DNA from: Glutinoglossum americanum
Taxonomy: Eukaryota > Ascomycota > Geoglossomycetes > Geoglossales > Geoglossaceae
NCBI GenBank assembly: GCA_020080175.1
Contig: JAGHQL010000174.1
Span: 1 to 58,600 of the forward strand
Reading direction: 5' to 3'
DNA: 58,600 nt
Under the pieces are notes generated by a model. The model had not been told where the DNA came from, did not search any database, and saw nothing but the letters and a program-made list of their open reading frames with translations. A program made the position numbers and the translations under genes. How positions within the stretch are numbered: the stretch's first letter is position 1; every line of letters begins with the position of its first letter. Positions 1,262 through 48,500 of this stretch are shown piece by piece.

Positions 1262-3970
1262 CTAATGGATGGTGAGGTAGAAGCCATCGATATTTGTCAG
1301 ATTTTGGTTAATGCCGGGACAACCCAGCAGCAACCTAGCTGCCGCCTGGTGTCCCCCATAAAAGGCATAGTGCAGTGGTGTCCACCCAAGAAAATCTTTC
1401 GCGTTCGGTTCGATCCCACCACAGTCTAGAAGCGACTTCATTATCGCTGTGTGTCCTCTAATGGCAGCGTAGTGTAGTGGTGTTAGTTCAGCACAATTCC
1501 CCAGGTTCAACATAATATCACTACGCTCCAGAAGCAGCTTCACCACCGCCCCGTCGACCCCATTAACGCCAATATGAAGCGGGGTATCACGGCTCTTGTC
1601 CCTCCGGTTTGGGTCAACGCCAGGACACTCCAGTAGCAACTTTACCGACTCCTCGTAGCCTTCATTGACAGCAACATGAAGTGGGGTATCGCCGGAGTCG
1701 TTTTCCGTGTTTGGGTCAGTCCTAGAACACTCGAGTAGCAACTTTGTCACCCCCTCGAGACGCGCAGTCACAGAGTTATGGAGCGGGGTGTTGCCATACT
1801 CATCCCTTGAGTTCGGGTCAATTCCGTCGATTGTCAGTAGCGACTTCACTACTGCCTCATAGCCTCTAAGGACGGCATAGCACAGTGGCGTCCAACCACC
1901 GATATCCTTCGCGTTGGGGTCGATGCGGCGGTGCTTTAGCAGCAGGTCTGTCGCTGCCTCATGCCCTCTGTCGGCAGCGTTGTGCAGTAGTGTCCAACCA
2001 TCATCATCTAGCGGGTTTGGATCAATCCCATCACATTCTAGCAGCAGCCTTATCACCGCCTCAAATCCTCCGTGGGCAGCATAGTGTAGTGGCGTTAACC
2101 CACGGCTGTTTTTCGGATTCAACTTAATGCCTTGACACTCGAGTAGCAGCTTCACCACTGCCACGTCACCCCTATTGACGGCACTGTGAAGCGGGGTGTA
2201 GCCATTAATATCCCCCAGGCTAGGGTTAATGCTGTGATACGCTAACAGTATCTCCACTACCGCTTTATGCTTCCCGTTGACAGCATAGAGCAGTGGGGTC
2301 CAGCCAGCGTTGTCTCGAGTGTTCGGTCGAATTCCGCCACGCCTTAGCAATAGCTCCGTTATCCCCTCGAGCCCTCTGCGGGACGAACAGTGCAATGGCG
2401 TTGAACCACGGTAGTTCCTCGGATTCAGCTGGATACCAGGACTCTCTAATAGCAATTCTACCACCGACCCATAATCTCCACGGACAGCATAGAATAGCGG
2501 CGTCATTAGGGTTATGCTCCTCGCGTTTGGGTCGACAGATTGATGTCCCAACAACAGCTTCACTATGGTCTCATTCCCTTCGCCGGCAGCGCCGTGAAGT
2601 GGAGTGTCGCCCCCCTTATCCCCAGAGTTTACGTCAATGCTAGGGCATTCAAGTAACAGCTTCACCACTGCCTCATAGCCTTCCATAACAGCATAGTGCA
2701 GTGGGGTCTGGCCAGCGTTTGACTTCGAGTTTGGATTAACGCTGCCACATGAGAGGAGCAGCTCCACCCCTTCTTCATAACCTTCGATAGCAGCGCAGCA
2801 TAATGGTGTCCTGCCCTCATTGTCTCTCGGGTTCGGATCGGCACCAGGCCACTCAAGTAGCGACTTCATCGCTGCTTTCTGGTACTTATCAACGGCTTTA
2901 TGAAGCGGAGTATTACCGTATATATCCTTCGGGTTTGGATCCACGCCAGGACACCCCAGTAACAGCTTCATTGCCCTACCCTGGACAGCGTAATGAAGTG
3001 GGGTACTGCCAATGCAATTTTTTGCGTTCAGATCGATGCCAGAACACCCCAGCAACAGCCCTGCCACCACCTCACCACCCCCGCCGACAGCTTCATGAAG
3101 TGGGGTGTTGCCATCCTCGTCCTTTGGGTTTATATCAATGCCAGGACGCTCCAACAGTATCCTCACGATAGCATCGTGTCCAGATTTGGCCGCGACGTGG
3201 AGAGCTTGGCGCATCCCCCAAGCCTGGACATTGGGGTCCGCTCCGGCCTTTATCAGCCCTTGCGCCTTAATGGCATCACCATCCTCAGCTACTAGAAACA
3301 ATGGTGTTCGGCCGAAAAGGTCCGCATTGTCAACGCAAGCGCCACCCGCAACCAACTCCTGCACTATGGCAATAGTGCTTTCCTTACTAGCGATGTGAAG
3401 CGCAGATCGGCCGAGGTAATCGGACATGTTTGCGTCAATATTTAAACTGATAGCGGCTAAAATTATTGATGCATTGCCCGTACGAACGCACCGATGTAAG
3501 AGCGGTGAGATCTTAAGGCCAAGGTCAACATCAAGGCCGAGATCTCTCATAATAGATGATAGTCTTGCCCAAGAGTCGCTGTATAGCCGCGCGAGTTTAT
3601 CCAATTCCCCCGATCTTCCGATATCCCCGACATCAGACCCAAGAAGCAACACTAGTTTTTCTTGAGCATCCTCCGCCGCTGCAAGGTCGCCCATTCCGAG
3701 ATACAACGAGACGAGGCTAGACAAAATAGCCTCACTCTTGCCACCTTGATGCGCGGAACACTCCCCAAGTCGATGAAATAGATACGTAGCGTCCCCGAAC
3801 TCACGCCGTGCTTGCAGTTCCTCGACCTTCGCAATAGCGCCCTGGGTAACCGTATGCATTGCCTCTTCAGCAGCACAGAAGAAAGTTCGTAGAGCTTCTA
3901 GACGCATTTCGACCGACTCAGGAACCACGCCATCGCAGCTGACGTCCAAATCGGCCTGGTGGTCTAACAA
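1262..3970 (-). CDS. ankyrin-repeat protein, about 21 repeats
   Basis: Ankyrin repeats form a stacked protein-protein interaction surface; the partner is unknown. The frame is open for 902 codons. An alpha-helical N-terminal region of about 180 residues shows no recognised domain. It is followed by about 21 repeats of 33-35 residues with the consensus G-x-TPLHYAV...VVKLLLE...DPN, running to the stop codon. One repeat near residue 330 is shortened. In fungi such arrays often form the C-terminus of NLR-like or Pfs/HET proteins, but no NACHT, NB-ARC or nucleoside-phosphorylase domain is visible here. The open frame starts at a non-ATG codon. The first in-frame ATG is at 3907, and the frame continues upstream to a possible splice acceptor near 3993, so one or more 5' exons are probably missing. 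The repeats are similar but not identical. Confidence 0.85.
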   Translation of the reverse strand: MLDHQADLDVSCDGVVPESVEMRLEALRTFFCAAEEAMHTVTQGAIAKVEELQARREFGDATYLFHRLGECSAHQGGKSEAILSSLVSLYLGMGDLAAAEDAQEKLVLLLGSDVGDIGRSGELDKLARLYSDSWARLSSIMRDLGLDVDLGLKISPLLHRCVRTGNASIILAAISLNIDANMSDYLGRSALHIASKESTIAIVQELVAGGACVDNADLFGRTPLFLVAEDGDAIKAQGLIKAGADPNVQAWGMRQALHVAAKSGHDAIVRILLERPGIDINPKDEDGNTPLHEAVGGGGEVVAGLLLGCSGIDLNAKNCIGSTPLHYAVQGRAMKLLLGCPGVDPNPKDIYGNTPLHKAVDKYQKAAMKSLLEWPGADPNPRDNEGRTPLCCAAIEGYEEGVELLLSCGSVNPNSKSNAGQTPLHYAVMEGYEAVVKLLLECPSIDVNSGDKGGDTPLHGAAGEGNETIVKLLLGHQSVDPNARSITLMTPLFYAVRGDYGSVVELLLESPGIQLNPRNYRGSTPLHCSSRRGLEGITELLLRRGGIRPNTRDNAGWTPLLYAVNGKHKAVVEILLAYHSINPSLGDINGYTPLHSAVNRGDVAVVKLLLECQGIKLNPKNSRGLTPLHYAAHGGFEAVIRLLLECDGIDPNPLDDDGWTLLHNAADRGHEAATDLLLKHRRIDPNAKDIGGWTPLCYAVLRGYEAVVKSLLTIDGIDPNSRDEYGNTPLHNSVTARLEGVTKLLLECSRTDPNTENDSGDTPLHVAVNEGYEESVKLLLECPGVDPNRRDKSRDTPLHIGVNGVDGAVVKLLLERSDIMLNLGNCAELTPLHYAAIRGHTAIMKSLLDCGGIEPNAKDFLGWTPLHYAFYGGHQAAARLLLGCPGINQNLTNIDGFYLTIH

Positions 3971-3993
3971 CCTCTTAAGATACCCGAGCTCTT

Positions 3994-5117
3994 CTACACT
4001 ACTTACTCATCTTAGCTCCAGATCCAGCAGCGACGTGGGAGTAGCCTCACTATTGGCGAGTGCTCTTAAGGGGGACCCTTTCCGTAGGAGAACCTGGAGC
4101 CCCCACAGATGGAGCGATAGCATGCGCCTGCTCGCGCTTTCTGAGGCTCTCCGAGCAAGCATAGTTGTACTTTACACAGCGGTCACACCGCTGTCCGGGC
4201 CACCTTCTATTTTCTGGCAAGCACTTTTCATAGTCAGCAATACAGTACCCGTGGATGAGAAAAGTGAAGAGAATAGTACCTTCTGTCTGTCTCTCCTACA
4301 CTGTTTGCATTTCTTGTAGGCGATTTTGGGCATCGTGGCTATTGAGTACGATTAGGAAACGAGCGATGCCTGCAATCACTGGTAGGCCAATACATATGTT
4401 AGCTTAGTCCCTACTTGCAAGTTTTTTCTAGCAAGACGGGATACGAACAATTTCAAAGCGCTAGCCTCGCCGCTATCTCTTGCATCGGTGATCTCCTACA
4501 CCAAACCCGAGTTAACATTGCTTTTATTTGATACCGTAGGGCGGATGCTGAGGGCGAAGGGGGACGGCGAATGTGAGATTTTATGCCCATGTCGCGTGGG
4601 GGTCCCACAATCACGAGGCATTTCACTCCCACCCAACCCCCGCTCCACTATACCAGTACCGAAAACATGTACGCACACTGCCGGTTGCAGCTAGCGATTG
4701 CACACCTCGTCCCGTCCGCCACCCCCCACCTACCGCATACAAACTGCCCACCCTTCTAGATAGTTACCAGAACAACCACCCCGCGTAACACATAACGTAT
4801 GACCCAGCCTTCCCTTCTTAAAACCGCCAGCCTTCGCACTCCTTATTCGCCCCCTACCCCGCTTGCTTGCGTCAGCCATTCCCACAAAAATTCAGGTAGG
4901 ATTAACACCTCATCCGGCGCTAGAGGGCCCCTTTCCATGCGCCTTCGCTGTCTCTCCTTCGCCCTCTACGTATGAAGAACCGAAGAGCTTATGTAGACGA
5001 GCCGTCAATCTACCCGTGGTGGATTCAAATGTATATATATTAAGCTCTTGTCCCACTAATGGGTCATCTATCATATAAGCCAACTACTTCGCCTTCGATG
5101 GTGTAGGCTCCCAAACG
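3994..5117. other. intergenic; possible 5' exon(s) of the ankyrin gene
   Basis: No convincing coding exon could be assigned. Missing 5' exons of the ankyrin gene may lie in the first few hundred bases on the minus strand. A CA/CC-rich stretch lies around 4715-4800. Confidence 0.4.
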
Positions 5118-8043: not shown

Positions 8044-9822
8044 CTAGCTAGTCGCGAGCTCTGGAGCCGCCTCGCAGCAACGAGCATGGAGCAAAGACGG
8101 CGAGCCCCCAATCTCGTAGAGCCTCCTAGCCAGCATCTCCGCAGTTGGGCGATCACCCGGGTCTTCACTCAGCATAGCATTCAAGACACCAAAGAAATCC
8201 TCATCCGCCTCCCCTCCGAGCTCCCGCGACCTCTGCCTCATCCGCTCTACCCAACGCGAGAGATTCTGCGGATCGTTCTGGAAGGAGGTGCCTTCTGTCG
8301 TCCCCTCCAGGCTTTGGAACAGCGAGGCGAGGCGGAGGTCGTAGAACACTGTGTTCATCTCTAGGAAAATACAGCCGAGTGAGTAGATGTCGGCCGCCCT
8401 GCCGTGCTCTTCGTATCGTGCGACTTCAGGTGCGCAGTACTCAAGAAACGTTAGCCCCACATTAGGTATTAGGTATTGCGTCACGGCTTATAGTGATACC
8501 TTGTATGTCCCGCGAATTAGGCCATCAGTGGCGCTTTGAGATAGGTCTGCAAGGTCCCTTGAGATCCCGAAATCCGTAAGAATGACTCCATCCCTCGTAA
8601 GCAGCACGTTTCTTGACTTGATGTCCTTATGCCGCACTCTGTTGCTGTGGAGGTATTCTATCGTGTTCGCCAGGCATCCGTGAAGCCTCCTGATGAATAG
8701 ACATGGGTCTCGTGGGCTCCCTACGCCGCCCGGACGAGGGTCCAACCCGAGATTATCAATAATCGTACATTTTCCTGACATGGAATAGTCGTCGAGTTCA
8801 TCTAGAAATGAACCGAGGTCGCAGATTGCCACAGGCCACAGCAAAATCCCCAGCTTATTGCCCTGCGTGTACGACCCAATAAGTCTCACAATATGATGGT
8901 ATCTCAGCTTTTGCGTTATTTTAATCTCGTTAATATCCTCTCGCCTTGTCCATCTATTAAGGCAGATTAGTTTCATTGCAAGTGCAACGCCTTGGCAGAT
9001 AACTTCAAATACGGCCCCGCTAGATCCATGACCTAAGTATCGGCGCTCCCCCAGAGGAATATCAGCTTCACGCTCATAATCCACATGTTGGCCTCTCCCT
9101 GACCAATTTGACCATATAGCGCACTCAGGTCCTGTCTCCACCGGCGAGGCTTCCTGTTGAGGGCTGACGAGAAGAGCTTGAGTTCCTAGTATAGCCTCTG
9201 CAGAGTGCGTGAGCGTGCTTGGAGGAGTATCCGGGCGAGGTCGGGATGTCGGCAGTGTCGTTAGCCACCAGTCGAGGCTTTTGCTGAGGCTTTTGGCGGT
9301 AACGCCACTTCTCCTTTGGGACACGGAAAAAGAGTGCCGCGAGGAGTTCTGCAAATGTTGATCCAGCGCCGTAAATGAGTTAAAGGGCCGACTGCACTCA
9401 TCACAGAAGGGATGATCATCCCTCGCCGAGCAGTGCTGATCTAAAGACTCAAAAGAGGTAAACCGTCGGTTGCACTCATCACAGAAGGGATGATCCTCCC
9501 TCGCCGAGTAATGCTGATCTAGAGACTCAAAAGAGGTAAACCGTCGATCACAGGTTTCGCAGAAAGGATGATCAGGTATCGCCGCATAGTGCTGATTCAA
9601 CGACTTCAACGAGCCAAAAGGCCGATCACATTTCTCGCAGAGGAGATGAGTATCAGAGAGATCCGAAAAATGCCGATGCAGGGCATCAAACGAACGAAAA
9701 GATCGGTTGCATTTATCGCAGAACGGATGATCACTCAGCGACTTCTGGTGTCGATGAAGGGCCCCCTCATCCGCAAACGAGTCCCGGCATATCGGACAAG
9801 ACACTTTCCGTTGCCTCCTCAT
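8044..9822 (-). CDS. C2H2 zinc-finger / protein kinase fusion
   Basis: Predicted 572-residue Ser/Thr-type kinase with N-terminal zinc fingers. Exon 1 is 9822-8500 and exon 2 is 8439-8044. The 60-nt intron (8499-8440) has a GTATCA donor and GCTAAC branch site. Splicing restores the kinase sequence GTYKYCAPEV. The start ATG at 9822 (MRRQRKVSC) lies just before the first finger. Six C2H2-like fingers of the type CDxCNRxFxSFxALDQH occupy residues 9-163. Fingers 4 and 5 are nearly identical. The kinase domain (about 260-560) has a glycine loop GHGSSGAVF, the lysine in LAMKLI, HKDIKSRNVLL (HKD in place of HRD, Asp kept), DFG and APEV. The catalytic residues are present, so it is probably active. 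The fingers suggest nucleic-acid or protein targeting. Confidence 0.88.
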
Positions 9823-10462
9823 GATGGAATACCGACACGCGACCACAAAAAAAGAAAAAGAGGTCAAGGATACAGAACACTCAATAGTCGCAATAGAGGA
9901 AGAAAGAAATTTGCCGCAAGAGCCTCTCTGCCTCACTCAGCCCTGTCAGTCCCCCGCCACCGGCAAACGGGCGGTTACACGAGATCCAATCAGGTTGACG
10001 GGTTGACTCAGCACAATCGGCTTTGCACCCCAAGACATACTACGAACTAGAGGGGAATCGCTAAAGGATGGGTTGGGGTGCTAGAATTCCCGGAATCTGG
10101 GGATAAATGAGGGCAAGGGGTTCGAAGGACGGACCACTAGCCTCCTGCATATCGCCAGAATGTCGGGCACACCGGTTAGATAGCCTAGACGCTAACAGAC
10201 CTAATGATAAGGAAACTACGAGCATAGGCGTCACCTTGTATCACCCATGGTCAGCCTAGGGACGAGGACGCGGCCGCTCGTTCAGAGCTCTCGGGTGGTC
10301 TGCCTGACAGTTAGTTATTGTAGTCAGACTGCAATCATGCTTAAAACTATCCTAGTAGAGAATAAACGACGAGGGGGGAGTTGCCAGTAAGTAGTTTGCA
10401 CAATATGACGCCTTTCCATGTCTTTTAGCGGATGAGTAGTTTACCTGAAGAGGGTCTAATTT
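9823..10462. other. intergenic, 5' of the zinc-finger kinase
   Basis: Contains the presumed promoter of the minus-strand kinase gene. No TATA box or repeat stands out, and no other gene was seen. Confidence 0.4.
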
Positions 10463-11165
10463 CTAGCGTTGGCAATGAACAGTGTCCTTTTTTGTTTCCC
10501 CCCTTACATTTCCAGCTGACGAATTGCGCTGCGCCAATTTCCCCACAATATCACTTAAAGCTTCATCGATCTGTGTAACATAAGAAAATACTCTCCCGTC
10601 AGCCTCTTTCCAATATTCCGAAAATAATGCCATTCGGCCGTCCATCCAATGAAAGCGCGGGGGAGCCAGAATCTCCCCTCAGAGAACCCACCGCCGCCTG
10701 TCCCAAAAAAACACCTTCGCCCTCTAAAGATCGTCCCAGTTTCCACTTTCACCCGTAAATCCGGACGCCCTCCACTATCTCCACGGTTAGCCTTGTTAAT
10801 GAATTCAAACAAAATTCTAGAGATCAAGGACTCCCCAAACACAGATCTCACCCACAGCTACTTCCAGGCACCGTCTCTCGCTATCAGGGACTGACTTGTC
10901 AGCCATAATGGAGATGGTAATAAGGTTCCAAGTGCCACCATCCTGTAGTCCTGCCGAAGAACGTCAACAACCCTCCAACCCTCGCACAACTGAACTTGTT
11001 CCACAACTCTGCCCTCCAAGGATGGATCCCAAATGGAAATGAAAGGGTCTCCCTTCCAACTGGGAATATGCGCTCCACTTCAGGATACTTGCTATCCTCC
11101 ACATCGAAGCCAGGAGGCTCACTTGAGACAGCCGTCCCATCACTAGAGCCTTTCTGATGCGACAT
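10463..11165 (-). pseudogene. decayed gene, copy A of a dispersed pair
   Basis: On the minus strand an ATG at 11165 opens MSHQKGSSDG and continues through EPPGFDVEDSKYPEVERIFP and HPWRAELWNKFSCARVG to a stop at 10899. Homology with copy B (18066-18525, plus strand) continues past that stop in other frames: DKSVPDSERRCLEVAVGEIC, then GRPDLRVKVETGTIFRG. It closes with an open segment containing DEALSDIVGKLAQRNSSAGN that ends at 10463. The frame changes could include introns, but none is clear, so the copy is probably broken. The function is unknown. Copy B lies just upstream of a trypsin-like protease segment, so this may be the N-terminal part of that kind of protein; that link is inference. 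Confidence 0.5.
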
Positions 11166-12088
11166 GGCAAGGTACCAGGTAAGCTTTTCAGTGGGCTGTG
11201 GTGGGTCGAGCTGTGGTTTACAAGATGGAAACCGAGCCATGCACGTCGAAGGAGCTTGTGGTCGTCATACGCTAAATCCGCCTCCTAATGACAATATGTG
11301 GAATTCATGGCATCACGACATCGTCAATGACGGCAACGCTTCTTGTTTGTGACGCCATCTGCTAGCAGCTAATTTTCTGTGCCAACGTATGCCAACTGCT
11401 TGGTATCACATAGGTATCATACTAGTGTGACAGTGCAAACTTTTATGTAATCAACGAAGAGTGTAATTGCATTGCGTGCGGATGCTCAACATGGCACACA
11501 TGCTACCTTAAAGTCCCATCTTCGGAAGCCCTCAGCGTTCCCTAGCATCTTCAGGGCCTCTCACTGCAACTCCCCACCGTTACCTTGCAGAAATATCCGA
11601 TGGGCCCAAGGATCCTCCCAGCTGGTCCTAACATCTCAATTCCCCACAGCCTAGAAGTCGATATCGCCATCCAAGAACCTGGGAGCCTGGCTACTACATT
11701 GGGCGACGTGCAACCGGGGTAAGTGTGATGAAGTGGGTCCGCGGGATGGCAAATTTGTTTCTTATACCCATAAACTTCAGCAGCTCAGAACGAGTCTCAA
11801 CGACTAAGATATCTATAGTCTGAACTAAAGCATCGCGTTGCCTTAACGGGCTTTCGACGCACCAGCGGAGATGTGTTCCAGCCATTGCCTCTTCTATAGG
11901 GTGAGACAGTTCTGGCTGGTTTTGGTGAATTCGTTGAGAGGGTGCCTAGACACTGCACTGCAGCCATTGCAGCAAAAGGTGGTCGTAACCGCTGGTACAA
12001 CAGCCGTCACTGTAGTTAGTTGCTGCAATACCTAATCGCCCTCCGCGGATTTCTCTTCACGATTCGTCCCACCATGTATCGACCCCGG
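11166..12088. other. intergenic, nothing recognised
   Basis: 3' flank of the DUF7580 gene and 5' flank of decayed copy A. Only short shadow frames were seen. Confidence 0.4.
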
Positions 12089-13920
12089 CTACACAGTAGT
12101 GTCAGCACATAGCGGAGAATACCTTGTTGTGCGATAACGCCACTGCCCGCAGTTTTTGAACAGTGGCTCGATGATATCTCCACAGATAGCGCCCCAGAAC
12201 CCAATGTCCTCCCAGTCCCGAAAGCGGGTTTCCCCGCCGATCATTCCCCGGACACAATGGGAGACAGCCTTGTCGTACAGCTCCGGCATTGGTTCGTCCA
12301 TGTCATCGAGCCACTTCAAGGCCAGTGCCAGGCGTTCGTAATATTCAACCGGAGCCTCCTCCAGAGAGAATTGAGCCTCCAAAGTCCTTTTGTGCCAGAT
12401 TTCCAGAAGCAAAATTCCGAGCTCGAGAAGGGCCACCCTTGGGTTTACGCTCTGCTGAGGCAGTGGCGCACTCGCATTGTTATCACCGAATGAAAGAGAT
12501 ACAAACGGCCGGTCGAAGTCGATATTAAGTAAATCTCGGGAGGCGTTATTAGCCTCGCCTGTAGGCCGAAGCAGGAAATATATCACATCTTTTGACCACG
12601 CACTCTGCAGCCACTGTGTTTGCAAGAGCTGGAGGAGGTTCGATGCAAGTCTGAGCGCAAGCAGCATCCGAAATCTCAAGGGAAGGAGGATATTATGGTG
12701 ATTTGACCTGTTATCAGATAGAAGGGTATTCAATGTCATCTTGTCGGCTTGGTGGCACGGGGTCAACATTTTCTCATCGGTAGGTATCGTCCCCATTTGC
12801 TGGCTTCCGGTAAGAACAAAAGCAATCTGTCGCTTGCTGCATCTGGCTGTTTCGATGGTAGCACAAATGTCATCAACGAAGGTCACCTCAGGCCCCGCCG
12901 ATGTACTTTCAGGCACAATAAGCTTAACCCCTGGCGATGCGGAGGGCCGACCAACAACCGGCAGGTTTGAGTTACCATCAGTGTCATCCTTTAACACGGG
13001 CACCACTGCTTCATGCCACAATGTCTGCCCTTGGCAGATGTTTACCGCAAATATGAGCTGGAAAACTAATACAGGCGCAGAGCCATCCCTTCTAGCCTGT
13101 TTCAAAATGTCTGCAGCGGTGTCCACTCGATCCTCGAGAAACAGCTTCGCCTCATGTTTTTCGTGGCATCCGGTTCTCCAACCTTGAAAGATAGCCAGAT
13201 ACAGGTTGCTAGCTGACCCTCGAACCCGGCGAAGAGCTTTTGCAAGCTTGACGGCCTTTCTAGGTGAGGTGCCCTCGATCAACTGGCGATTTGATGACAT
13301 AATTCTTGCGAAGTGACAAAGGGTGTTAGTAGTATCATCGAGGTCCCGAATGGCGCTCTTCAGTTCACTTGCTCCGAACGTTAGCTTCACTCTTGGAACC
13401 AAGTCTAGCTGTCTGGCATTCGCTTCTTGGTTGGCCTTAATAATTCCAAGCAAGTTGCCGTCGTGATCCTGTTACCGGATGTAAGCCTCAGTAAGCGCAA
13501 ACGCTCTTGCAAAAGGTTGTTGGTAAAACAGACCTTCACAGCGGGCACGAGACCTGCGATATTCTTGACTATCTTCTTGACGATATCATCGCTTTGCTTG
13601 AGCGCCCCGGCAAATGCAGCATCATTTTCCGGTCCCAAGTAGTCCAGGACTTGATCTCGAACGCTTCTATCGTTCAAATATCCAAATGGGTCGTCATCTA
13701 GGCGCCAAACGTCCTCACATCCGCTTCCGATGAGGAGTGACCTGACTGTCTCCGCAAGCGTTCGCTGTTGGAGGAGGAGTGCAAGAGCCAGCTTCTCGAC
13801 GTATATCCGCTTCTGAAAGAAGATTCTGCTCCTTTTAATGCCATCCTTAGACAAGTCAACGGCCTTGAAGAGGACCGGGAGAGCTCCAAGCAAAAGACCC
13901 GCAACCTCGATTCCCGACAT
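12089..13920 (-). CDS. DUF7580 family protein
   Basis: Predicted 592 residues. Exon 1 is 13920-13476 and exon 2 is 13422-12089. The 53-nt intron (GTAACA...AAG) keeps the frame. The ATG at 13920 gives MSGIEVAGLLLGALPVLFKA, the characteristic N-terminus of this fungal family; the upstream GTG is less likely. The N-terminal half is helical and resembles the HeLo-like N-terminal regions of fungal NLR and prion-associated proteins. The C-terminal half carries the DUF7580 landmarks FRMLLALRLASNLLQLL, YFLLRP, NPRVALLELGILLLEIWH and AVSHCVRGM. This half looks like a kinase C-lobe without catalytic motifs (inference). No annotated biochemical role is known to me. It is head to head with the zinc-finger/pseudophosphatase gene, with 264 bp between start codons. 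Confidence 0.8.
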
Positions 13921-14184
13921 GAGTACATCCACCGGAGAACCGGGAACTTTTGGTTGCGGTCGTAGGCAACGCAGACCTTGTCAGCACGCTTTGGTCACAA
14001 TCAGAGCAGGTCGAGATGATATCGCGGAGCGCAGTAACTACCTAGATGCGGGGTAACACGTATAGCCTCGCTGCCGATTGGATGGAGGCAACGAATCACT
14101 TCTCTCAAATATCTAGGCGAAGGATTTGCTGTCGAACCCCGAATATCGCCTTTGCAAGAATCCTGGGAGCGGCGCACTCGAATC
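13921..14184. promoter_or_regulatory. bidirectional promoter region
   Basis: This 264-bp gap separates the start codons of two divergent genes (DUF7580 minus, zinc-finger/pseudophosphatase plus) and must hold both core promoters. No clear TATA box was seen. Co-regulation of the pair is plausible but inferred. Confidence 0.5.
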
Positions 14185-17100
14185 ATGGCAGGGTCAATAA
14201 GAAGGGAGACTCTCGCTAGCACGGGTCTTGAGACCATGAAGCTTTTCGAGCGGGTCAAGGCCATCGACAACCTCGTTGGAAATGCAAGAGACGAAGGATG
14301 GCCTAAGGCTCGATTCGCGGCCGAAGCCGACCGTTTTGAGCTTTGGGCTGTGAACCTGGGTCTCTTCGTATCGGGCCATGGGTCTCTGGATTATCGTGTC
14401 AGGCAGGCCGAGAGCATAGGTCAAACACTACAGAGATTCATGAGTGGCCTTAACAACTCGTTGGCCGAAGGTCAATCCATACCCAGACTACGCTATTCAT
14501 ATCTCGCTGACCCTAGGCTGATTAGTACTCGATTACTGCGCTGGCAAGGCCGACCCGTCGATGTCAGAGGTGCAAGAAGATCCAGCGGGCAACCCTCTGG
14601 ATCTAGATCCCGTAGACGAAGATTTTAGAGATGAGGCCTCCCAGGAACCAGGCTCAGACATAGACTTGCTCCTAGACAGTGTAAAGGATCCGGTTGACCG
14701 ACTTTACAAGCTCTCGACATGGATCCGCAACCCATCATCTAGATTTGCGTCGTCAAAGGCGCTGCACCACCACCAAATTGATCCAGAGTCTAATGTTGAC
14801 CTCCTACAGGCCGTCAAAGAATTTGACTACGATTATGTCAGTTCGCTATTTTTGCAATATCGAAAATCGAGAGCGTATGGGGAGCGTCCGACCCTTAATC
14901 CACCAGAACACAAGGATAGAGATGATGATGCAGATAATGTATGGGGGCCAATCCGGACCATACTCTCGCAACACAAAACCGACCGCTCAAAGGGCACCGA
15001 GTCATTTCTTGTTTATCGTATAGCCCAGGCGAACACCCGCCGAAGACAGCAATTTGCATATTGGAAGAAACACCGAGACAAGCTCACTCAACATACAAAA
15101 ACAGTTACGCAACACCTTGACGTTCGCAAGGAGGTGGCTCTAGCTCAATTTAACTTGGAAATACAAGCCAACGAGGTTCCAATATCCGTGATGACTCCCG
15201 CACGATCTGTAACGACCGCTAGCCGTCTGAACACCCTCCAGCCGGCCGCTATGGACGGCCAGTCTAACGTCTCGGCCTCCGAATATGCTCCCTCAATGTG
15301 GCAGCCCGGCGAAGAGGTCGCGGGCTTTCCTCCTGTGCCGAAACGGCCACCAAGCGAAAAATTCTTCGAGTGTCCTTATTGCTTCACATTGTGCCCGAGG
15401 GCACTGCTGGCCGAAAAAGCATGGAAGTGAGGCAGTCCCAAAACCGGTGTGGCTACGGAAGAGGCAACACTAACGGCAATTACAGAGCTCACCTCATACA
15501 CGATCTGCGCCCTTACATATGCACATATGAAGACTGCAAAAATCCGGATCAGCTGTACGATGCCCGCCAGGACTGGATTGGACATGAGAACTCCTCGCAT
15601 CGGAGGGTATTGCGCTGCCCAGAGCACCCAGATCAAACCTTTTCCAAACTCGAGGAATATCAAGAACACCTACACCACGGACACGCCGACTATAGAGATG
15701 AGATATCCGTAACCCTAATCACCCATGCTAGCGAATCAACCTTAGAATTCCCAGACAGATGCTGTCCAATATGTTCCCTATCTCTAGAGACTGCAAGAGC
15801 ACTACAAAGCCATATTGCACTGCACCTCGAGCGATTTTCTCTGTTTTCATTACCACGATCCGTTGGCGAAGACGACAACGATGCAAATGAAGGGGGTTCA
15901 GATGAAGTCAATGTTGCTTTTGATGGTTCCAGAGACGAGGACTTCTGTGGAGACCTGGACTTTGCGGGGGAAGATAACAGCGATGCAAATGAGGCGGCTT
16001 TAAATGAGGCGGGTTTAAAGAAAGCTATTGCCGAAGCTATTGCCTCTCCCAGCACGAGCGAGGACCCCGATGAAGATCTAGACTCTATGGGGGAAGACGA
16101 CAATGATGCGAATGAGGCGGGTTCAAATGAGGCGGATTTAAAGAAAACTGCTGGCAACGTTGTTTTTTCCCTCCCTACACCAGTGACGAAGGGCCCCAAT
16201 GAAGATCACGACTCTGTAGGGGAAGATGGCAGTGATGTGAATGAAGCGGGTTTAAATGAGGCGGATTTAAAGAAAGCTGTGACCACCAGCGACGAAGACC
16301 CCGATGAGGATATTGACTTTATGGGGGAAGATAATCTAGAAGAACAACAAGCAAGAGAGCAGTCGCCAGTATTGCTTGATGACGAGGTGGATCTTGAGAG
16401 TATCATAGAGAAACTGCTTGAGGCCCGTGGCGCGAAACGCGGAACACTAGTCCATCTCCTAACACAGGAGATTAACTATCTCTTCCAGAAGGCTCGCGAG
16501 GTGTTTATCTCACAACCTATTCTCCTAGAACTAGAGGCGCCGCTAATGGTATGTGCCATGAACCCACTCCCTTAACTATATAACTATATAACTATATACC
16601 TAACCCACATACCTGACGATCCCAGATATTTGGAGACATACGAGGACAGTATTATGACCTGCTCCGCTGGTTCGAGTATGTCGGCTTCCCTCCGGAGGCG
16701 AACTTCCTCTTTCTGGGTAATTTCGACGGTAGGGCGGCGCAGCCCCTCGAAACCTTATGCCTTCTTTTCGCTTTTAAGATTAAATATCCTGAGAACTTTT
16801 TCCTCTTGCGGGGTAAGCACGAGACCATGCCATTTTCGAGGACATACGGTCTCTACGGAGAGTGCAGGGGAAGGCACAACATTCAACTATGGGAAAATGC
16901 TGTGCATACCTTCAATTGTATGCCTATAGCGGCAATCGTTGATGAGAAGATTTTTTGTGTCAGCAGCGGCCTTAGTCCTAATCTCAACAGGATTAGGGAT
17001 ATTGACTTGATCATGCGTCCATTAATCGTAAGTCTACCATGCCTTTCTTGTATACCCACTCTTCCAGTTACAGGTGCTAGAAGGAGCTTATCCTTGTTTG

Positions 17101-17486
17101 ATACCGATATAGATTCCGGACCGCGGGTTGCTTTGTGATTTACTCCTTGCTACTCCTGATCTCGACATTGCCGGCTGGTCCGATAACGATTCAGGGACCT
17201 CATTCAAATTCGGTCCTGACGTCGTTAGTCGGTTCTGTCAAAGGCATGATATGGATTTGATCGTGCGAGGGAACCAAGTCCTCCAAGATGGCTATGAGTT
17301 CTTCTCAAAGCGGCGACTAGTTACGCTATTCAGTGCGCCCAATTACGGCGGAGACTTCGGCAATTCCGGCACAGCGATGGACGTTAATGAGAGCCTGTTT
17401 TGCTCTCTCAAAGTAAATACATTCTGTTAGAATCCTCCTCCCATACCGATATTGACATTCTTTTGCAGCGTTTGAAACCGAATTAA
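14185..17486 (+). CDS. acuF-like C2H2 protein fused to a PP1-type pseudophosphatase
   Basis: Six exons: 14185-14470, 14568-15426, 15486-16548, 16626-17027, 17113-17412, 17469-17486. They sum to 2928 nt (975 residues), and every intron (56-97 nt) preserves the frame. The N-terminal half is the fungal acuF-like family: [21 protein letters not shown], then [20 protein letters not shown], then ECPYCFTLC, then [20 protein letters not shown] (completed by splicing) and a CCPICSL...[12 protein letters not shown] finger. An acidic region of four imperfect GEDxxDANEAxxNEAxLKK units follows (15867-16340). Residues about 685-970 are a near full-length PP1 catalytic fold ([44 protein letters not shown]). 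GDIHG has become GDIRG, GDYVDRG has become GNFDGRA, RGNHE has become RGKHE, MHGGLSP has become VSSGLSP, and RAHQ has become RGNQ. Catalysis is therefore probably lost, while the regulatory-subunit-binding fold may remain. Confidence 0.88.
15867..16340 (+). repeat. in-frame acidic tandem repeat within the pseudophosphatase gene
   Basis: Four imperfect coding repeats start with GED and contain DANEA...NEA.LKK, separated by variable acidic spacers with DPDED. They form a probably disordered linker between the zinc fingers and the PP1-like domain. Copy number may vary between strains. Confidence 0.75.
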
Positions 17487-18065
17487 AAACAAAAGTAGAT
17501 GTATGGCGGTTTAGGCGGTAGCAGGAATAAGGGGTGAAATTAGGTCCAGCACCTAGACTAAATTTCAAAGTAGAGTTCAAAGACGGCAAGAATAAAGTTC
17601 AAATATGACCAAACGAGGGGCCAAAAATGAATTAAACCAGGGTGTCAGAATTGGAGCAGATCCAAAATCGGGTGCTCATTTAGTTTATAAACAAGACCCA
17701 TTGCGCCCATCAAATGGATCGGTTTAAATTAAGCATCACTGATCCTTCCCAATTCCCTCTATCTATGCATTATCAGTAGATATCAAGGCGGGTAGAGAGT
17801 CCGAGATGGCCAAATGAAACGAATGGCCCATAACATTACATGAAAATCAAACGCTTGGTGCACGTTGGCACATAGAATCGCGGAAATGTCGCCGTCACAG
17901 CGCCATTATCTTCACTTGCCGTCATACGGAGGAGGGAGATTTAGAATGACAACAAACCATAATAAACTTCTTCGACGTATCTGCGCGGTTGGGTTTTTAT
18001 CTTGTAAACTGCAACTCAGTTCCCCAAAGGTCTCTACAACAGTCCAGTATCCTTAATACCTTGCC
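17487..18065. other. intergenic, nothing recognised
   Basis: 3' flank of the pseudophosphatase gene and 5' flank of decayed copy B. AT-richer than its neighbours, with no convincing open frame. Confidence 0.4.
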
Positions 18066-18525
18066 ATGTCACATCCGAAAGACCCCATCAATGAGACCAT
18101 CGTCCCAGGGGTGTCTTCAAGTTCTGAGCCTCCTCTCTTCGGTGTAGAAGATAGCAGGTTTTCCGCAATATCTCCAGTCGGAGAGGAGTATGGTCTTATT
18201 TCAATTTAGGATTCATCCCTAGAGGGCAAAGTTATGGAACAAGTTCGGTTGTGCGAGGGTTGGGGATCAGTTGATGTCGTTCGACGGGGGCTACGCTTGA
18301 AAACCCTATCATCATCACTATTACCATCAACAAGTCAGTCCCTGATAGCGGGGAGCGGTGCTTGGAAGTAACTGTGAATGAGATCTGCGTTCGGTGAGTC
18401 TTAATCTCTAGAAGTTTGCTTGAGCCTGTTGGCGAGCCTGATTGCGGGTAGGGAAGGGCGTCCGGATGTCCGGGTGAAAGTGGGGACTGGAACAGTATAT
18501 AGAGGAGTCTTGCTATCAAAGCAAT
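18066..18525 (+). pseudogene. decayed gene, copy B of a dispersed pair
   Basis: ATG at 18066 sits in the same context as copy A (ccttgccATG). It opens MSHPKDPINETIVPG and continues EPPLFGVEDS. The homology with the minus strand of 10463-11165 then goes on through the equivalents of RAKLWNKFGCARVGD, NKSVPDSGERCLEV and GRPDVRVKVGTGT, but with several in-frame stops and frame changes, so it is broken. The trypsin-like protease segments begin about 540 bp downstream on the same strand. The two may once have been one gene. Confidence 0.55.
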
Positions 18526-18767: not shown

Positions 18768-18979
18768 AAAACTAATAGGGTACAAACCATGTTAATATAC
18801 TATGTATTCTACTGCTTTTATAGCATAATACTCTCTAGATACAAAAGCTGATAGGGTACAATGTACCCTATCACTTCACTTCCAATAAGTAGACCTACAA
18901 ATCATATTAACGTACTATGTATTCTACTGCTTTTATAGCATAATACTCTCTAGATACCAAAGCTGATAGGGTACAATGC
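18768..18979. repeat. tandem duplication of about 114 bp with a palindromic junction
   Basis: A block of roughly 75 bp (atactatgtattctactgct and following) occurs at about 18788-18862 and again at about 18902-18978, with two or three differences. Each copy ends in the motif ctgatagggtacaatg. A third, shorter relative (ctaatagggtacaa) lies at about 18772. At the first junction the motif runs into its own reverse complement (gatagggtacaatgtaccctatc), a perfect-looking palindrome. The block is AT-rich and non-coding, and could derive from a small non-autonomous element. Confidence 0.7.
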
Positions 18980-19271
18980 AGCCTACTAGTTTTGCAATAT
19001 GTTGGCTAATATGTAACATAATTATTATATCAAATCCGATTAGATGTTAACTTTTTCTGTCAGCTCAGGATATCGTCAGGCCAAGTGCGGATGCTCTCTT
19101 GACTGGGCACTAATTCAAGTAGATGAGGGCTGTGTAGGGGATAACAAGGCTAGATCCGGGACTCCACTAGATATTTGAGATTGCCCACAATACAGGCGAA
19201 GGAATGGCTGATGGACTAGTAGCGATTACTTCAGATACCTAAAGATGACTTTTCATGTTCTAGGCCGCTAG

Positions 19272-30217: not shown

Positions 30218-30219
30218 TA

Positions 30220-30409
30220 ACGTCGTTTATCAGTGAGCGGCGAATATCAGCGACCGGCGAGCTTAGTACCACCACACCAAAATTTGTATGTAGAGATACT
30301 TTTGTGACAACTTTCTTTTTCCAGAAGAAGTATTTCTGCATACAAATTTTGGTGTGGTGGTACAAAGTTCGCCGGTCGCTGATATTCGCCGCTCACTGAT
30401 AAGCGACGT
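30220..30409. mobile_element. MITE with 71-bp terminal inverted repeats, TA target site
   Basis: Left arm 30220-30290 and right arm 30339-30409 are reverse complements with about three mismatches in 71. The loop is 48 bp. Ends read ACGTCGTTTATCAGTGAGCG and the element is flanked by TA on both sides (30218-30219, 30410-30411), the target duplication of Tc1/mariner/pogo transposons. The element is 190 bp with no coding capacity, so it is a non-autonomous miniature element. High arm identity suggests recent activity or foldback correction. Its RNA would form a long hairpin. Confidence 0.9.
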
Positions 30410-30411
30410 TA

Positions 30412-31600: not shown

Positions 31601-34600
31601 CTAATAATGCGTCTGCGACATCCCAAAAGTCTGTCCACCAATCTCTTGCTGTGGAAACCCGCCTTGCTGCACGGTGTTAGGCTGGCTCGACTGCCCTTGC
31701 GTTGGGTATCCTTGAGGCCCACCCATGCTTGGTTGCTGAGAGCCCGAGTGGTGCGCAACGTTCGGTTGGCCGGCTGTCTGTTGTCCTTGAGATCCATTTG
31801 CAGGCACTCCGTCCACCCCCATCGCATGGGGTTGATTAGGTTGGCCGGGAATCTGCTGTCCGGACGTAGGCATGCTATTCAATCCCATCGGTTGGGTAGG
31901 CTGGCTACCTATCTGCGTCCCCCGAGCTCCGGAGGTGGATAAGTTCATGCTCTGGGGTTGGCCATGTGCCGGATGCATATTGAATGCCATAGGCGCCTGT
32001 CCAGCGTATTGAGGCACCACCCCCTGTTGCCCATACCCTTGGAACATGCTATTTGGCCCTGGAAAGCCTTGGTTGTATCCTGCTTGCAGTGGAGAAGGAC
32101 CAACTAGACTTTGATTCTGTGCGGCAAAACCGGGAGCTGGGTTGAATGCCGGCATGGCCCCTTGCCAATGTTGCCCCTGGCCCTGCGAGCTCAATTGCTG
32201 GAGGTCTATCCCTGGAGTCCATTGCGGTCCCACTGGGTGGCCTTGAACGGGGTTCGTATTTTGGGAGTAGATATTACTTCCCATTGCAGCTGGATTGACA
32301 GAACCCCATGTTCCCTTGGCGTTTGGATCAGATCCTCGGTACATGTCGGCCCTCCAGTGAACTGATTGCGCATAATCAGTAGCTGACAGCATCAGTGTTT
32401 TCTTAATATACTCGTCGAATTCGACTGAAGCCCTAGCGACAGTCTTAAACCACTCTAGCCTCAAACTAGGCCTTGCAGGATGTTTTGGGTCTGTAGCCAA
32501 TTCGATGCTATCGTACTCAGCGAGGGCGACGGCGGTTTGAAAGGCGTTTCTGATCTGCCTCCCGTTCCATCCAACCTTATGGCTAGCGACTTGAGATTTG
32601 TAAAGACTTTCAGCATATACCAGAACCTCTTGTTTATCGACGGCAATATCTTTGTGCTTGATAATTGTATCCAGATTATGCTCCCATATGGCCTTCGTTT
32701 GTCCCCAGTCGAGGGGTGGATAAAGAAGGCTTACATGAATTCGCGACCTGAAGGCCTCGTCAATGGTACCAACTCTATTCGTCGTCAAGAAGAGTATTCC
32801 GGTGTAGTACTCAAGAGCGCGCAGGAAGACTTATCCTATAAGCTTAATCCCTAACAACGAACAGGACAAACATACCGGAGACCAGCGCATTTCGTTTCAC
32901 GTCTGCTTTTGCTCTCTCAGCAAGGAATACGTCGGCTTCGTCAAGCAGCAAGACACATCCCCAAGACTGCGCAAGCTGAAAATTCAATTCTAGGGTTTGC
33001 TCCACCTGAGTTGGCGTCATGCCAAGGTCACCTGTTGTTGGATCAGCACTCTGGCGGCTAATTTTGAGGGTTTTAACGTACCGCAAGTAATAGGGAATAG
33101 CGGTTTAGCGTTCAATGAGGCGACGCATTCTAGTACTCGTGTTATTAACTGCAGCCGCGTAGGGTAGGAGTGTACTGACCGGCAGTGGATGTCTTTCCCA
33201 CACCAGGCGCGCCATGCAAAAGAATGATTAGTCCTTTGCCTTGACCCCAAGTCAGCTACGGCCTCTCTCCACTATATCTTTCCTAGTATGTACCTTTAGC
33301 TTTCACAAGGTCAAATCCAAGCCCTTCATCCTCACTCAGATTCATATTTTCGCGTCGGCGAAAGTGGGTCTGCACGAGGCCCAGTACAACACGGTCGTGG
33401 CCTGGGGGAAGCTTAAGATTCTTAAAGCCGTCCTTTTCCTCCTTTACCGGACTTAGGTCGTCCATTCGCAAGCTGGCTGTGGAATATCAGCAGTTAGCAA
33501 GGAAAAGGCTTGTCGCTTGCTTGTTATGACATACCCCATTTGCGGCTGCGCAAGATGAAGCCAAACACTCTGTTCGGGAGTAATTTCCATTCCTCTTGGA
33601 GGATTTCAGCCTTTTCCGTTTGATTGTTCTCGTTTGATTTTTCTCTCTCTTCATGAAAGTCGCTAGATCGCTGCCGATCCCAAGTGTAGTCCTTAACGAT
33701 GTTCTCATTCGTGCAGCAGAAGACACTGGAGCAATTGCCATAGTCGCCACATTCGACAAATTCATGCAAGGTCATCTCACGAGTCTCCCGGCCGTCTGAC
33801 TCACAGGTGTCGGACCAGCTAAGCTCAGGGCGCCACTCGGGGTTAAATTGGAGGGTCCGGTCGAAATCCACCATGACGGGACTGTCGACATCCTCAGGGT
33901 GGGAAACCTTGAACATGGCTCTTCCGGCCGGTGACCTGATCAGAGTGCGTCCTTTGCAGTACATATGCCGAATCCCAGAGGCTTCAACAAAATTCTTTCC
34001 CCGTGCGTTCAACTTCGCCAGCAAAGCAGGGCTCGTTTCCCCATATCTGACCGGATATAAGTCCAGCGAGGTAACTTCTCTCCAACCCTCAAAGGGTCTG
34101 ATTCCGAACCTGTGCTGACAGGGACCCCACTCCTTGCCGTCGAAGTCTATATAGTAACAGTCAAGAGTAAACTCGCTTGCCTTTGCAGTGTTTGGTCTGA
34201 TGCTGCTGGTGTCGCCCGACAGGTAATGTCTTCCGCCAGTTGCCTGCCGCACTCTCCACAACGTCTGCGGGCCTTTCCTTGAAAATACGAATGTTCCGGG
34301 TTCGAATAGATGCCACAAATCCTGGAACTGAACTTTTGGATTCTTTTCTTTCTTATCATCCAGGCGGTCGTTAAGGTGCCCGAGACAGTCGTCGAGTAAA
34401 TTGACAAGACATCGGAGGTCGTCCCGAGCCTCGGCGGACTCGTGCAGCTCAACTTCTTCGCCATCATCATCTTTCTTGGTGGCCGTATCATCTTGCACCG
34501 GCATCTCTCTGTCTGGTACTAGTGCCGAATAATCGTTATCTTTTTCCTCTTCATCATGGCTACAGTCACGCAACGGAATACCCCATCTTCCTTCTAGGCT

Positions 34601-35488
34601 AATTAGCGTTTCCTTGAGCTCTTTCCTGTGGTAGATTAAGGGCTTGAAAGGCCGTAGGATGACCAGTGGCCTTTCAGAACTATCATCGAAAGAGTTCGCC
34701 GTTATTTTGCGGAGGATCCGAAGAAGCGGGATGGAGTTGATTCGAATACGCTCTGGAAGCTCTTTGGAAATAGGGCTGTTGTCTGTCAATGTCCTCACCA
34801 TGTTAGGTGTCGTGACTGCGGCTTTATGGCGATGATGGAACAGAATAGGCTCCCCATTCAGGACGTCAATCGCATGGTGAGACTCTCCCCTCTTTCTCAG
34901 CTCTTTGAATTCCATCCAATCAACCACATTCAGCTTCGGAATTGCTGGTTGCCTCACGGGCGTCTCATCCTCGGGAGGGGGCTCTGGCGAGGGTTCGCGT
35001 TTTTCCAGAACTCTGAGCCTATCTTCGATACGGGAAACGCGTCTCTCTGCCAAGTAGACGTGATGAACATGCTGCCCGACCCGTTTCTTTGACTTGTTCT
35101 CCAGGTCTTTATTCGACATTTCTCCGGAATTGTTCTTCCCCAGCACAAACATATAATCAACCGAGCTCCCATTGCTAATTTCATCGAGATCTCGGGTTCG
35201 GCTTTTGATTATCCCTGCCTGGCCTTCAATTCCCACATGAGGTTCCTCCGACGCGTCCGCCTCTGGGCCTGGTTTGTCGACTTCAATTTCTTCAAGATCG
35301 CCTTTCTCAACCGACTCCTGAACCTTCATATCCAATTCCTCCGCTTGGAGTGAGTGATCCTCTGCATTACTGCCACGCTTATCGGGAGTGTTTTGTAAGG
35401 AGGTAGCCGCAGTTGTGGGGGCCAAACTTGTTGATACACTCTTTGTTGACCTACTCGATCCACAATCTTCGCTCATTGGAGACGGCAT
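31601..35488 (-). CDS. DUF7025 / AAA ATPase with Gln/Gly/Pro-rich tail
   Basis: Six exons: 35488-33535, 33476-33294, 33239-33180, 33129-33082, 33031-32876 and 32829-31601. They sum to 3630 nt (1209 residues), and every junction falls in phase 1. The N-terminal 200 residues are charged and disordered. Residues 200-640 hold the fungal DUF7025 region (FEPGTFVFSRKGPQTLWRV, YYIDFDGKEWGPCQHRFGI, EGWREVTSLDLYPVRY). The AAA module has Walker A (LLHGAPGVGKTSTA, residue about 720), Walker B (GCVLLLDEADVFLAER) and sensor 1 (LFLTTNRVGTIDEAF), with an arginine-finger-like RSRIHVSLLYP. The last 250 residues are rich in Gln, Gly, Pro, Asn and Ser. A remodelling ATPase is expected; the substrate is unknown. 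The closest well-known group is the fungal cytosolic AAA family annotated only by domain. Confidence 0.9.
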
Positions 35489-36121
35489 TTTGGGGTTCAG
35501 CGAGCAAAGACCTCAACTTGAAGACGATAGTAACAAGGGTGGAGTTGAGAGAGGTTGAGACTGTGAACACTCAACACGGGAAGCTCTTGTCAGTTCAATT
35601 CCTTCCGGAGAGTAACCCAATCTCCAGAAGCGCATTCTTTACGTGGGGGCTAAATGCCTACAAATACCCCGGCCCCTTGCAACGAGTAACTTTTCGCCCC
35701 CAATAATCAAGTCGCAGTACGGCCATGGCCAAGACATTTCAACATTTACCCCGCAATTATATTTACAGGCGACGCAATACTTCGTACTCTGCACATGTAC
35801 TCTCTTTCAGTCAACCACGGCTTAGGCATTGCATATTCGCCCCACATCGGTCCTTGATTTTAATAGGTTGATGACCCCTCTTTCATCAACTATCCGTACA
35901 TACTGAGCAGCTACAGCGTATCATTGATATCGTTCAGCCCATTCGCGTAGTCGTCTGCATTACGATAAGGAATAATTGTGACCTTGGCCATGCACCCTCA
36001 CAGAGGCCCAACTGTAATTGCATATTAAATATATGTTTCAAGTTTAGGTCAAGCGATCTACGGAAAACCCTAAGTGTTCACGAGAAACTTCGAGCGTTTT
36101 CATTCCTGCTTCGAAGACAGC
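35489..36121. promoter_or_regulatory. divergent promoter region between the AAA and DUF7708 genes
   Basis: The 633 bp separate the divergent start codons at 35488 (minus) and 36122 (plus). No distinct TATA box was seen and no further gene was found. Confidence 0.4.
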
Positions 36122-47994: not shown

Positions 47995-48500
47995 TTCCCG
48001 GTTTTTGTGGGTGAAGGGGGGTTTTAATTTATCCCGGTGTTACATACGCGAGCGAGATGTTTATATCAACCGCTCATCACCCTTTTGACCACCCACACTG
48101 CCCAAGTAAGGCTCAAGTACTTGAAAAAAAAAGAATCATCGTCTGCGTGACGCGCTGAGATTTATCTCATTCAGCTATGTGCCTGCCATCGTGGTTATGT
48201 CACAAGAAACGTCTCCGCTGAGCCATGTGCATAGGTAGTTACATTGCACGCGTCGTGACGCTAATGTGACAAGAGAGATACAAAAAGATCTCCGGGTATC
48301 CAGCGAAATGGCAGTTGTAGGGGCAGTTCACCCCCACAGTTTGAAACGCCATGTATGAACCATCTTCAATCCCCCTCCCCCCCAAAAAAAGATATATAGA
48401 AAGACCGATCAAGCAGACGGTTCAGCGGAAGATATCCGTGGACGATGCCTTGCTGATCGGGATATTAACAGAAATAAAAAAGAGAGACTTTGTACACCGT
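47995..48500. other. intergenic between ribokinase and ferric reductase genes
   Basis: Ribokinase promoter side and 3' flank of the ferric reductase gene. No other feature was seen. Confidence 0.4.

Follow-up and report, generated by a model that had tools for sequence, protein, structure and literature searches.

Gene model and fusion point

The window analysed here is a stretch of 58,600 nucleotides from the fungus Glutinoglossum americanum (contig JAGHQL010000174.1, positions 1 to 58,600), and the gene of interest lies at 14185-17486 on the forward strand, where a zinc-finger-like protein is predicted to be fused to a PP1 phosphatase domain with an altered catalytic centre. A six-exon model joins to 2970 nt, or 989 amino acids (aa) plus a stop, with no internal stops, which bears out the coordinates and open frame proposed in an earlier note on this DNA (Table 1). 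That note described the splice sites of all six exons as clean. The description holds for introns 2 to 5, whose donors match a simple consensus at 5, 6, 6, and 5 of 6 letters and whose acceptors are all AG, and is overstated for intron 1 (donor 4/6). The joins of exons 3/4, 4/5, and 5/6 give a gapless alignment to PP1, and for intron 4 only one of the three frame-keeping joins in the range tried has a full donor match.

The fusion is independent of splicing and exon joining, since the end of the C2H2-like part, the linker, and the start of PP1 up to position 60 share a single stop-free exon. This exon (exon 3, 15486-16548) has 0 stops in the coding frame versus 27 and 21 in the other two frames, and exon 2 occupies a frame of 302 open codons (14522-15427). 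Judged from the sequence, the fusion appears real and unusual, and the locus is predicted to encode one protein with a zinc-finger-like N-terminus and a whole C-terminal PP1 domain.

A simple Cys/His pattern picks out two C2H2-like motifs in the N-terminal 525 residues. Among Pfam zinc-finger models, zf-C2H2_4 scores highest, with 16.2 bits against a cut-off of 27; neither the NCBIfam models nor, at E up to 1, the solved structures gave a match to these 525 residues. In the earlier designation of an acuF-like C2H2 protein, the Cys/His spacing is present; the C2H2 motifs score under Pfam cut-offs, and the label "acuF-like" has no basis in this analysis. Repeats within the acidic linker have a ratio of nonsynonymous to synonymous differences (pN/pS) of 0.67-0.82 over 17 synonymous sites, which are too few to tell constraint.

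PP1 descent of the C-terminal domain

In the joined protein, Pfam identifies STPPase_N (3.7e-16, aa 699-746) and Metallophos (1.5e-25, aa 748-937), both above cut-off. A phmmer search against solved structures gives 427 bits to PP1-2 (7qwj, presumably fission yeast Sds21) and 414 to PP1 gamma, far exceeding the scores to PP2A (about 193) and calcineurin (199), which identifies the domain as derived from PP1. Residues 695-989 are identical to PP1 gamma at 180/294 positions (61 percent) and to PP1-2 at 186/292 (64 percent), in both cases with no gap. The earlier description of an almost full-length PP1 is therefore upheld, with a gapless alignment over 294 residues and both Pfam domains found. 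Among the 255 positions common to PP1 gamma and PP1-2, 85 are changed.

Loss of the catalytic centre

Of the six residues that we take to be the PP1 metal ligands (D64, H66, D92, N124, H173, and H248), D64 alone is kept; the remaining five are replaced (H66R, D92N, N124K, H173S, and H248N). The residues that we take to serve in catalysis or phosphate binding are D95, R96, H125, R221, and Y272, among which R96, H125, and Y272 are kept and two are changed (D95G and R221S). All five motif changes reported earlier (GDIRG, GNFDGRA, RGKHE, VSSG, and RGNQ) are present, with 5/6 ligands altered. The predicted PP1 domain is very probably inactive as an enzyme. Folding would need new residues, perhaps K124 and R66, in place of the metal charge. 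An AlphaFold2 (AF2) prediction for exon 4 alone (134 aa, the longest contiguous PP1-like stretch, aligned with one PPP) has a mean predicted local distance difference test score (pLDDT) of 37.9, too low to inform on the fold.

Partner-docking surface and SDS22 site

In PP1, the groove for the RVxF motif is formed by I169, L243, Y255, F257, R261, M283, L289, F293, and C291, with D166, D242, and E287 (PMC9582199, PMC3387161), and the acidic patch for the SILK motif by E54, E56, D166, and E167 (PMC9582199, PMC10066265). Fourteen of these 15 docking residues are identical to PP1 gamma in the fusion domain, the exception being F293L, and R74, Y78, L296, and P298 are kept in the groove adjoining the RVxF pocket. 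Two patterns tried on the fusion protein detected no RVxF or SILK motif of its own that could bind its PP1 domain.

The two lysines that bind SDS22 are both replaced (K147Q and K150E), and PP1 K147A/K150A is deficient in SDS22 binding (PMC11199634). The laboratory variant PP1 H66K is folded, lacks the M1 metal, binds inhibitor-3 normally in vitro, and stays on SDS22 in cells, and it has been used as a laboratory sponge (PMC10776994, PMC10066265, PMC11388335). The H66R change found here is chemically close to H66K.

Table 1 Features of the fusion gene and its product (window positions; aa, residues of the joined protein)
Feature	Position	Strand	Remarks
Exon 1	14185..14470	+	aa 1-96, N-terminal region; open frame, ATG at 14185
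Putative intron 1	14471..14525	+	donor GTCAAT; CTGAC and TTAG at 3' end; weakest join of the model
Exon 2	14526..15426	+	aa 96-396; central region and first Cys pair of C2H2-like module
Intron 2	15427..15485	+	GTGAGG..TTACAG, 59 nt
Exon 3	15486..16548	+	aa 396-750; C2H2-like motifs, acidic repeat linker, PP1 N-terminus
Intron 3	16549..16625	+	GTATGT..CCCAG, 77 nt; falls after PP1 position 60
Exon 4	16626..17027	+	aa 751-884
Intron 4	17028..17112	+	GTAAGT..ATATAG, 85 nt
Exon 5	17113..17412	+	aa 885-984; bears most of the RVxF pocket
Intron 5	17413..17468	+	GTAAAT..TTGCAG, 56 nt
Exon 6	17469..17486	+	aa 985-989 and stop; corresponds to LKP end of PP1
C2H2-like zinc-finger module	15365..15873	+	aa 376-525; split by intron 2; Cys/His spacing
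Acidic linker	15871..16380	+	aa 525-694; 53 D/E in 170 residues
Linker repeat units	15938-16027, 16061-16150, 16190-16279	+	same codon phase throughout
Putative PP1-like pseudophosphatase domain	16381..17486	+	aa 695-989 and stop, across exons 3-6
GDIRG for GDIHG	16632..16646	+	D64 kept, H66R
GNFDGRA for GDYVDRG	16716..16736	+	D92N, D95G; R96 kept
RGKHE for RGNHE	16809..16823	+	N124K; H125 kept
Equivalents of SDS22 lysines K147, K150	16884..16895	+	Q and E here
VSSG for MHGG	16959..16970	+	H173S
RGNQ for RAHQ	17266..17277	+	H248N

Distribution of changes across the domain

At positions common to PP1 gamma and PP1-2, the active site keeps 4/11 residues versus 13/14 for the RVxF/SILK set (Fisher p = 0.007), the latter numbering 14 in this contrast because position 242 differs between the two PP1s. 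When each is compared with the rest, the active site, the RVxF/SILK set, and a wider docking set (17/19 kept) give p = 0.039-0.046. Changes affect 41 of the 130 positions that are invariant in PP1 gamma, PP1-2, and PP2A, falling on 7/11 active-site positions versus 34/119 others (p = 0.036).

Neutral simulation from the gene's own domain, with point changes only and insertions and deletions (indels) ignored, left 15, 8, 25, and 7 stop-free runs per 1000 at comparable divergence under four settings. Repeat-induced point mutation (RIP) was rejected as the source of the changes; the indices of the gene resemble those of the rest of the window and show no RIP bias.

Proposed function and alternative explanations

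The most likely reading, to which we give somewhat less than even confidence, is that the gene is an expressed PP1 pseudophosphatase that would bind PP1 partners without catalysis, carried on a zinc-finger-like protein. The domain would fold, the positive charge of the missing metals being provided by R66 and K124, and would be unable to dephosphorylate, the two catalytic metals being no longer bound. It would still take the RVxF/SILK partners of PP1 and would avoid the maturation trap set by SDS22, which would not let go of a PP1 unable to load metal. A PP1 copy that never loads metal would be stuck on SDS22 unless that site were lost, which fits the K147Q/K150E changes. At whatever site the zinc-finger part occupies, such a domain would permanently compete for PP1 partners or tether them. 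A more specific proposal, which we consider doubtful, is that of a natural PP1 sponge, in which a zinc-finger protein bears a PP1 copy that is metal-free (H66R, N124K, and others), SDS22-free (K147Q and K150E), and RVxF/SILK-competent, and diverts PP1 regulators at chosen sites. If this is true, the protein would represent a pseudophosphatase descended from PP1 and the natural equivalent of the laboratory H66K sponge. A dead PP1 copy of this kind would also be a natural experiment separating the partner-binding from the maturation surfaces, and would mean that PP1 partner networks are open to competition by a gene-encoded mimic. Described PPP-family pseudophosphatases are few.

Several observations weigh against a partner-binding pseudophosphatase. 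Several tests were made on one sequence, and several p values lie near 0.04, so that the contrasts are suggestive only. The earlier claim that catalysis was lost and partner binding retained is supported by the counts of changed active-site positions (7/11) and kept docking residues (14/15), but not by the retention of PP1-specific docking positions, which is not significant (8/9 kept versus 73/116, p = 0.16; RVxF/SILK alone, 5/5 versus 76/120, p = 0.16). Segment 125-154 keeps 13/30 positions versus 157/225 elsewhere (p = 0.0065), and 352/5000 shuffles contain some 30-position window at least as poor as the poorest observed. Two positions of the groove adjoining the RVxF pocket are changed (M290F and Q294K). 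With 85/255 positions changed, the chance of two given lysines both changing is about 1 in 9. Loss of SDS22 binding is uncertain because Y134 and R96 are kept in the fusion domain; both take part in SDS22 binding or the SDS22-bound conformation of PP1, and changing Y134 to Ala abolishes PP1-SDS22 binding (PMC10776994). The idea that the domain still takes inhibitor-3 is weakened because PP1 K147A/K150A also recruits less inhibitor-3 in cells (PMC11199634).

The stability of the fold and the start of the gene raise further points on the same side. All four of what we take to be the M2 ligands are altered in the fusion domain. PP1 H248K could not be purified, from which its authors conclude that the M2 metal is needed for stability, and PP1 H248N retains M2 binding (PMC10066265). 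With the M2 metal said to be needed by PP1 and all four ligands differing here, the predicted fold may be unstable. In the intron 1 region, 64 GT/GC..AG joins keep the frame with a donor score of at most 4/6, the value of the GTCAAT donor in the model. Intron 1 may be atypical, or the region may instead contain a sequencing error or a lesion of the zinc-finger part; if no intron exists there, a shorter protein could begin at aa 108, where exon 2 has an ATG in frame. The intron 1 problem leaves the PP1 part untouched.

The main rival, to which we allow a real but clearly minor share of probability, is a decaying or recently dead gene, in which a zinc-finger gene has acquired a copy of PP1 that drifts unselected, its frame having stayed open by luck or youth. 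The lack of a good donor for intron 1, the changes at 85/255 positions common to two distant PP1s (including W206 and D208, which are common to PP1 and PP2A), a head-to-head neighbour open in two different frames, and linker repeats that are little constrained by their pN/pS (0.67-0.82, 17 synonymous sites) are all consistent with decay. It is harder to reconcile with 989 stop-free codons, 294 aligned residues without a gap, four ordinary introns out of five, and the absence of a RIP signature, and a stop-free outcome was rare in the neutral simulation (7 to 25 runs per 1000, indels being ignored). The possibility that two separate genes were wrongly joined draws on an ATG at aa 675, ahead of the PP1 part. 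This ATG lies inside the linker repeat pattern (SMGED/FMGED), the longer repeat units keep codon phase, and one stop-free exon holds the C2H2-like part, the linker, and the PP1 start; we reject separate genes as highly improbable, the fusion lying within a single exon.

Two other roles for an intact protein were weighed. The domain may be a bait or decoy in fungal self/non-self recognition or defence, a target mimic sensed via the zinc-finger part and perhaps acting with the divergent DUF7580 gene that lies head to head with the fusion gene, with 264 bp between start codons (13920 on the reverse strand and 14185 on the forward strand). The presence of ankyrin, C2H2-kinase, and NPHP3_N genes in the neighbourhood is consistent with this role, as are NLRs of Sordariales that bear zinc fingers, and others of their kind with CHK-2-derived kinase domains that have been proposed to be integrated decoys (PMC12258605). 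In the same paper, however, head-to-head NLR pairs are rare in Sordariales (PMC12258605), DUF7580 is without mention in the open-licence literature searched, and the Pfam domains detected in the 989 aa at E up to 0.01 are limited to STPPase_N and Metallophos, with no NB-ARC or NACHT. Since no NLR domain was found, the comparison to integrated decoys of immune receptors made in the earlier note is an analogy only, and we regard a bait or decoy as improbable. A phosphate-trapping pseudophosphatase that binds substrates, instead of mimicking PP1 for its partners, would agree with the retention of R96, H125, and Y272 and with the role proposed for PfPPP8 (PMC10317984) and kinetoplastid PPP pseudophosphatases (PMC2994645). 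It is very unlikely here, where the phosphate/metal centre is mostly gone (R221S, D95G, and five metal ligands).

Genomic neighbourhood

The DUF7580 gene (12089-13980, reverse strand) has its ATG at 13920, with 264 bp between it and the ATG of the fusion gene. The frame that is open for its N-terminal part differs from the one for its C-terminal part, the two overlapping near 13408-13471, and the gene is either broken, mis-sequenced, or interrupted by an undetected intron. The DUF7580/fusion pair is flanked by diverged inverted copies of about 600 bp (10721-11311 and 17902-18505, 67 percent), in which a short reading frame starts MSHQ in the first copy and MSHP in the second; the open reading frame around the first copy has no Pfam match. 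Further upstream, a gene at 8047-9936 (reverse strand) encodes a C2H2 finger array followed by a protein kinase domain in a single frame with one stop at 8488-8490, perhaps inside an intron. AMK, HKD, and DFG are visible and are taken by us to be the kinase motifs. This gene, some 4 kb away from where the PP1 fusion begins, is another fusion of zinc fingers to a signalling enzyme. A 914-codon open frame at 1265-4006 (reverse strand) contains many ankyrin repeats. A 90-nt direct repeat (18781-18985, two copies 92 percent alike) follows the fusion gene at a distance of about 1.3 kb, and a scan for bacterial promoters and terminators downstream of the gene, which is not applicable to a fungus, gave nothing.

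Elsewhere in the window, segments with DUF7025 and AAA_lid_13, a fungal AAA lid, lie in adjoining open frames at 31604-35512 (reverse strand) and are perhaps one AAA ATPase gene. An NPHP3_N domain at 37152-38240 (forward strand) is presumed to be perhaps a fragment of a fungal NLR. The genes around the fusion may form a cluster of receptor-like genes, but there is nothing to connect the fusion itself with immunity. An inverted repeat at 30218-30411 (84-nt arms, 94 percent complementary, 26 nt apart) has the look of a hairpin or small foldback. Ordinary genes include a C2HC5 zinc-finger protein (43975-45516, forward strand), a PfkB sugar kinase (47005-48039, reverse strand), and a ferric reductase in two open frames (48504-50929, reverse strand), the last being the sole Pfam match among ten further open reading frames of the window. 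A tRNA scan of the window found none. The short introns and the domains encoded in the window suggest a fungal source.

Relatives and comparison with known systems

Relatives were sought in viral contigs, genome contigs, and plasmids, collections that are not made up of fungal genomes as such. Viral contigs gave no relative for any of three queries (the C2H2 part, the PP1 part, or an alignment of four rows), and none was found in plasmids or in genome contigs searched with the C2H2 part. Searching genome contigs with the alignment recovered five loci of PPP-like genes in bacterial metagenome-assembled genomes, at 32-41 percent identity, which are probably eukaryotic contamination. Judged by title and abstract opening, searches of open-licence literature returned no paper on a PP1/zinc-finger fusion or on a fungal PP1 pseudophosphatase. 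PPP pseudophosphatases as such are already known or predicted in protists. Predictions for kinetoplastids date from 2007 and 2010 (PMC2175518, PMC2994645), and PfPPP8 of Plasmodium was called the first experimentally characterised PPP pseudophosphatase in 2023 (PMC10317984); a further paper concerns pseudophosphatases of another family (PMC3827238).

The C-terminal domain resembles PP1 gamma and PP1-2 in its STPPase_N and Metallophos domains, its RVxF/SILK residues, and its ungapped alignment at 61 and 64 percent identity. It differs from PP1 in five metal ligands, D95, R221, the SDS22 lysines, and the attached N-terminal part of 694 residues. Among PPP pseudophosphatases, PfPPP8 shares the PPP fold and a broken metal motif, GNLINRG in PfPPP8 and GNFDGRA in the fusion (PMC10317984), and probably also a long N-terminal part, as its motif lies near residue 1311. 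In PfPPP8, however, one core motif is mutated and the motif spacing is longer than in active PPPs (PMC10317984), whereas the fusion has several changed motifs, exact PP1 spacing, and a PP1 parent. Kinetoplastid PPP pseudophosphatases likewise have altered catalytic residues and have been proposed as substrate traps or scaffolds (PMC2175518, PMC2994645). That set comprises a PP2B-like cluster and diverged kinetoplastid-specific PPPs, and a PP1-derived zinc-finger fusion is not found there in the excerpts of these papers.

Within fungi, PPZ phosphatases also have a long variable N-terminus followed by a PP1-like domain, which is about 60 percent identical to Glc7 (PMC8836105). PPZ is active and without the SILK site (PMC8836105), whereas the fusion keeps D166/E167 and has lost catalytic residues. 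Sordariales NLRs with integrated domains are similar in that an enzyme copy, and possible bait, sits in a fungal multidomain protein (PMC12258605); their decoy candidate is a CHK-2-like kinase (PMC12258605), and the fusion, in which no nucleotide-binding domain was found, differs from them in this respect. PP1 H66K is like the fusion domain in having a basic residue at the M1 ligand H66, and it acts as a sponge for PP1 partners. It is, however, an engineered single change that still binds SDS22, whereas the fusion domain is without the SDS22 lysines and its M2 ligands are changed.

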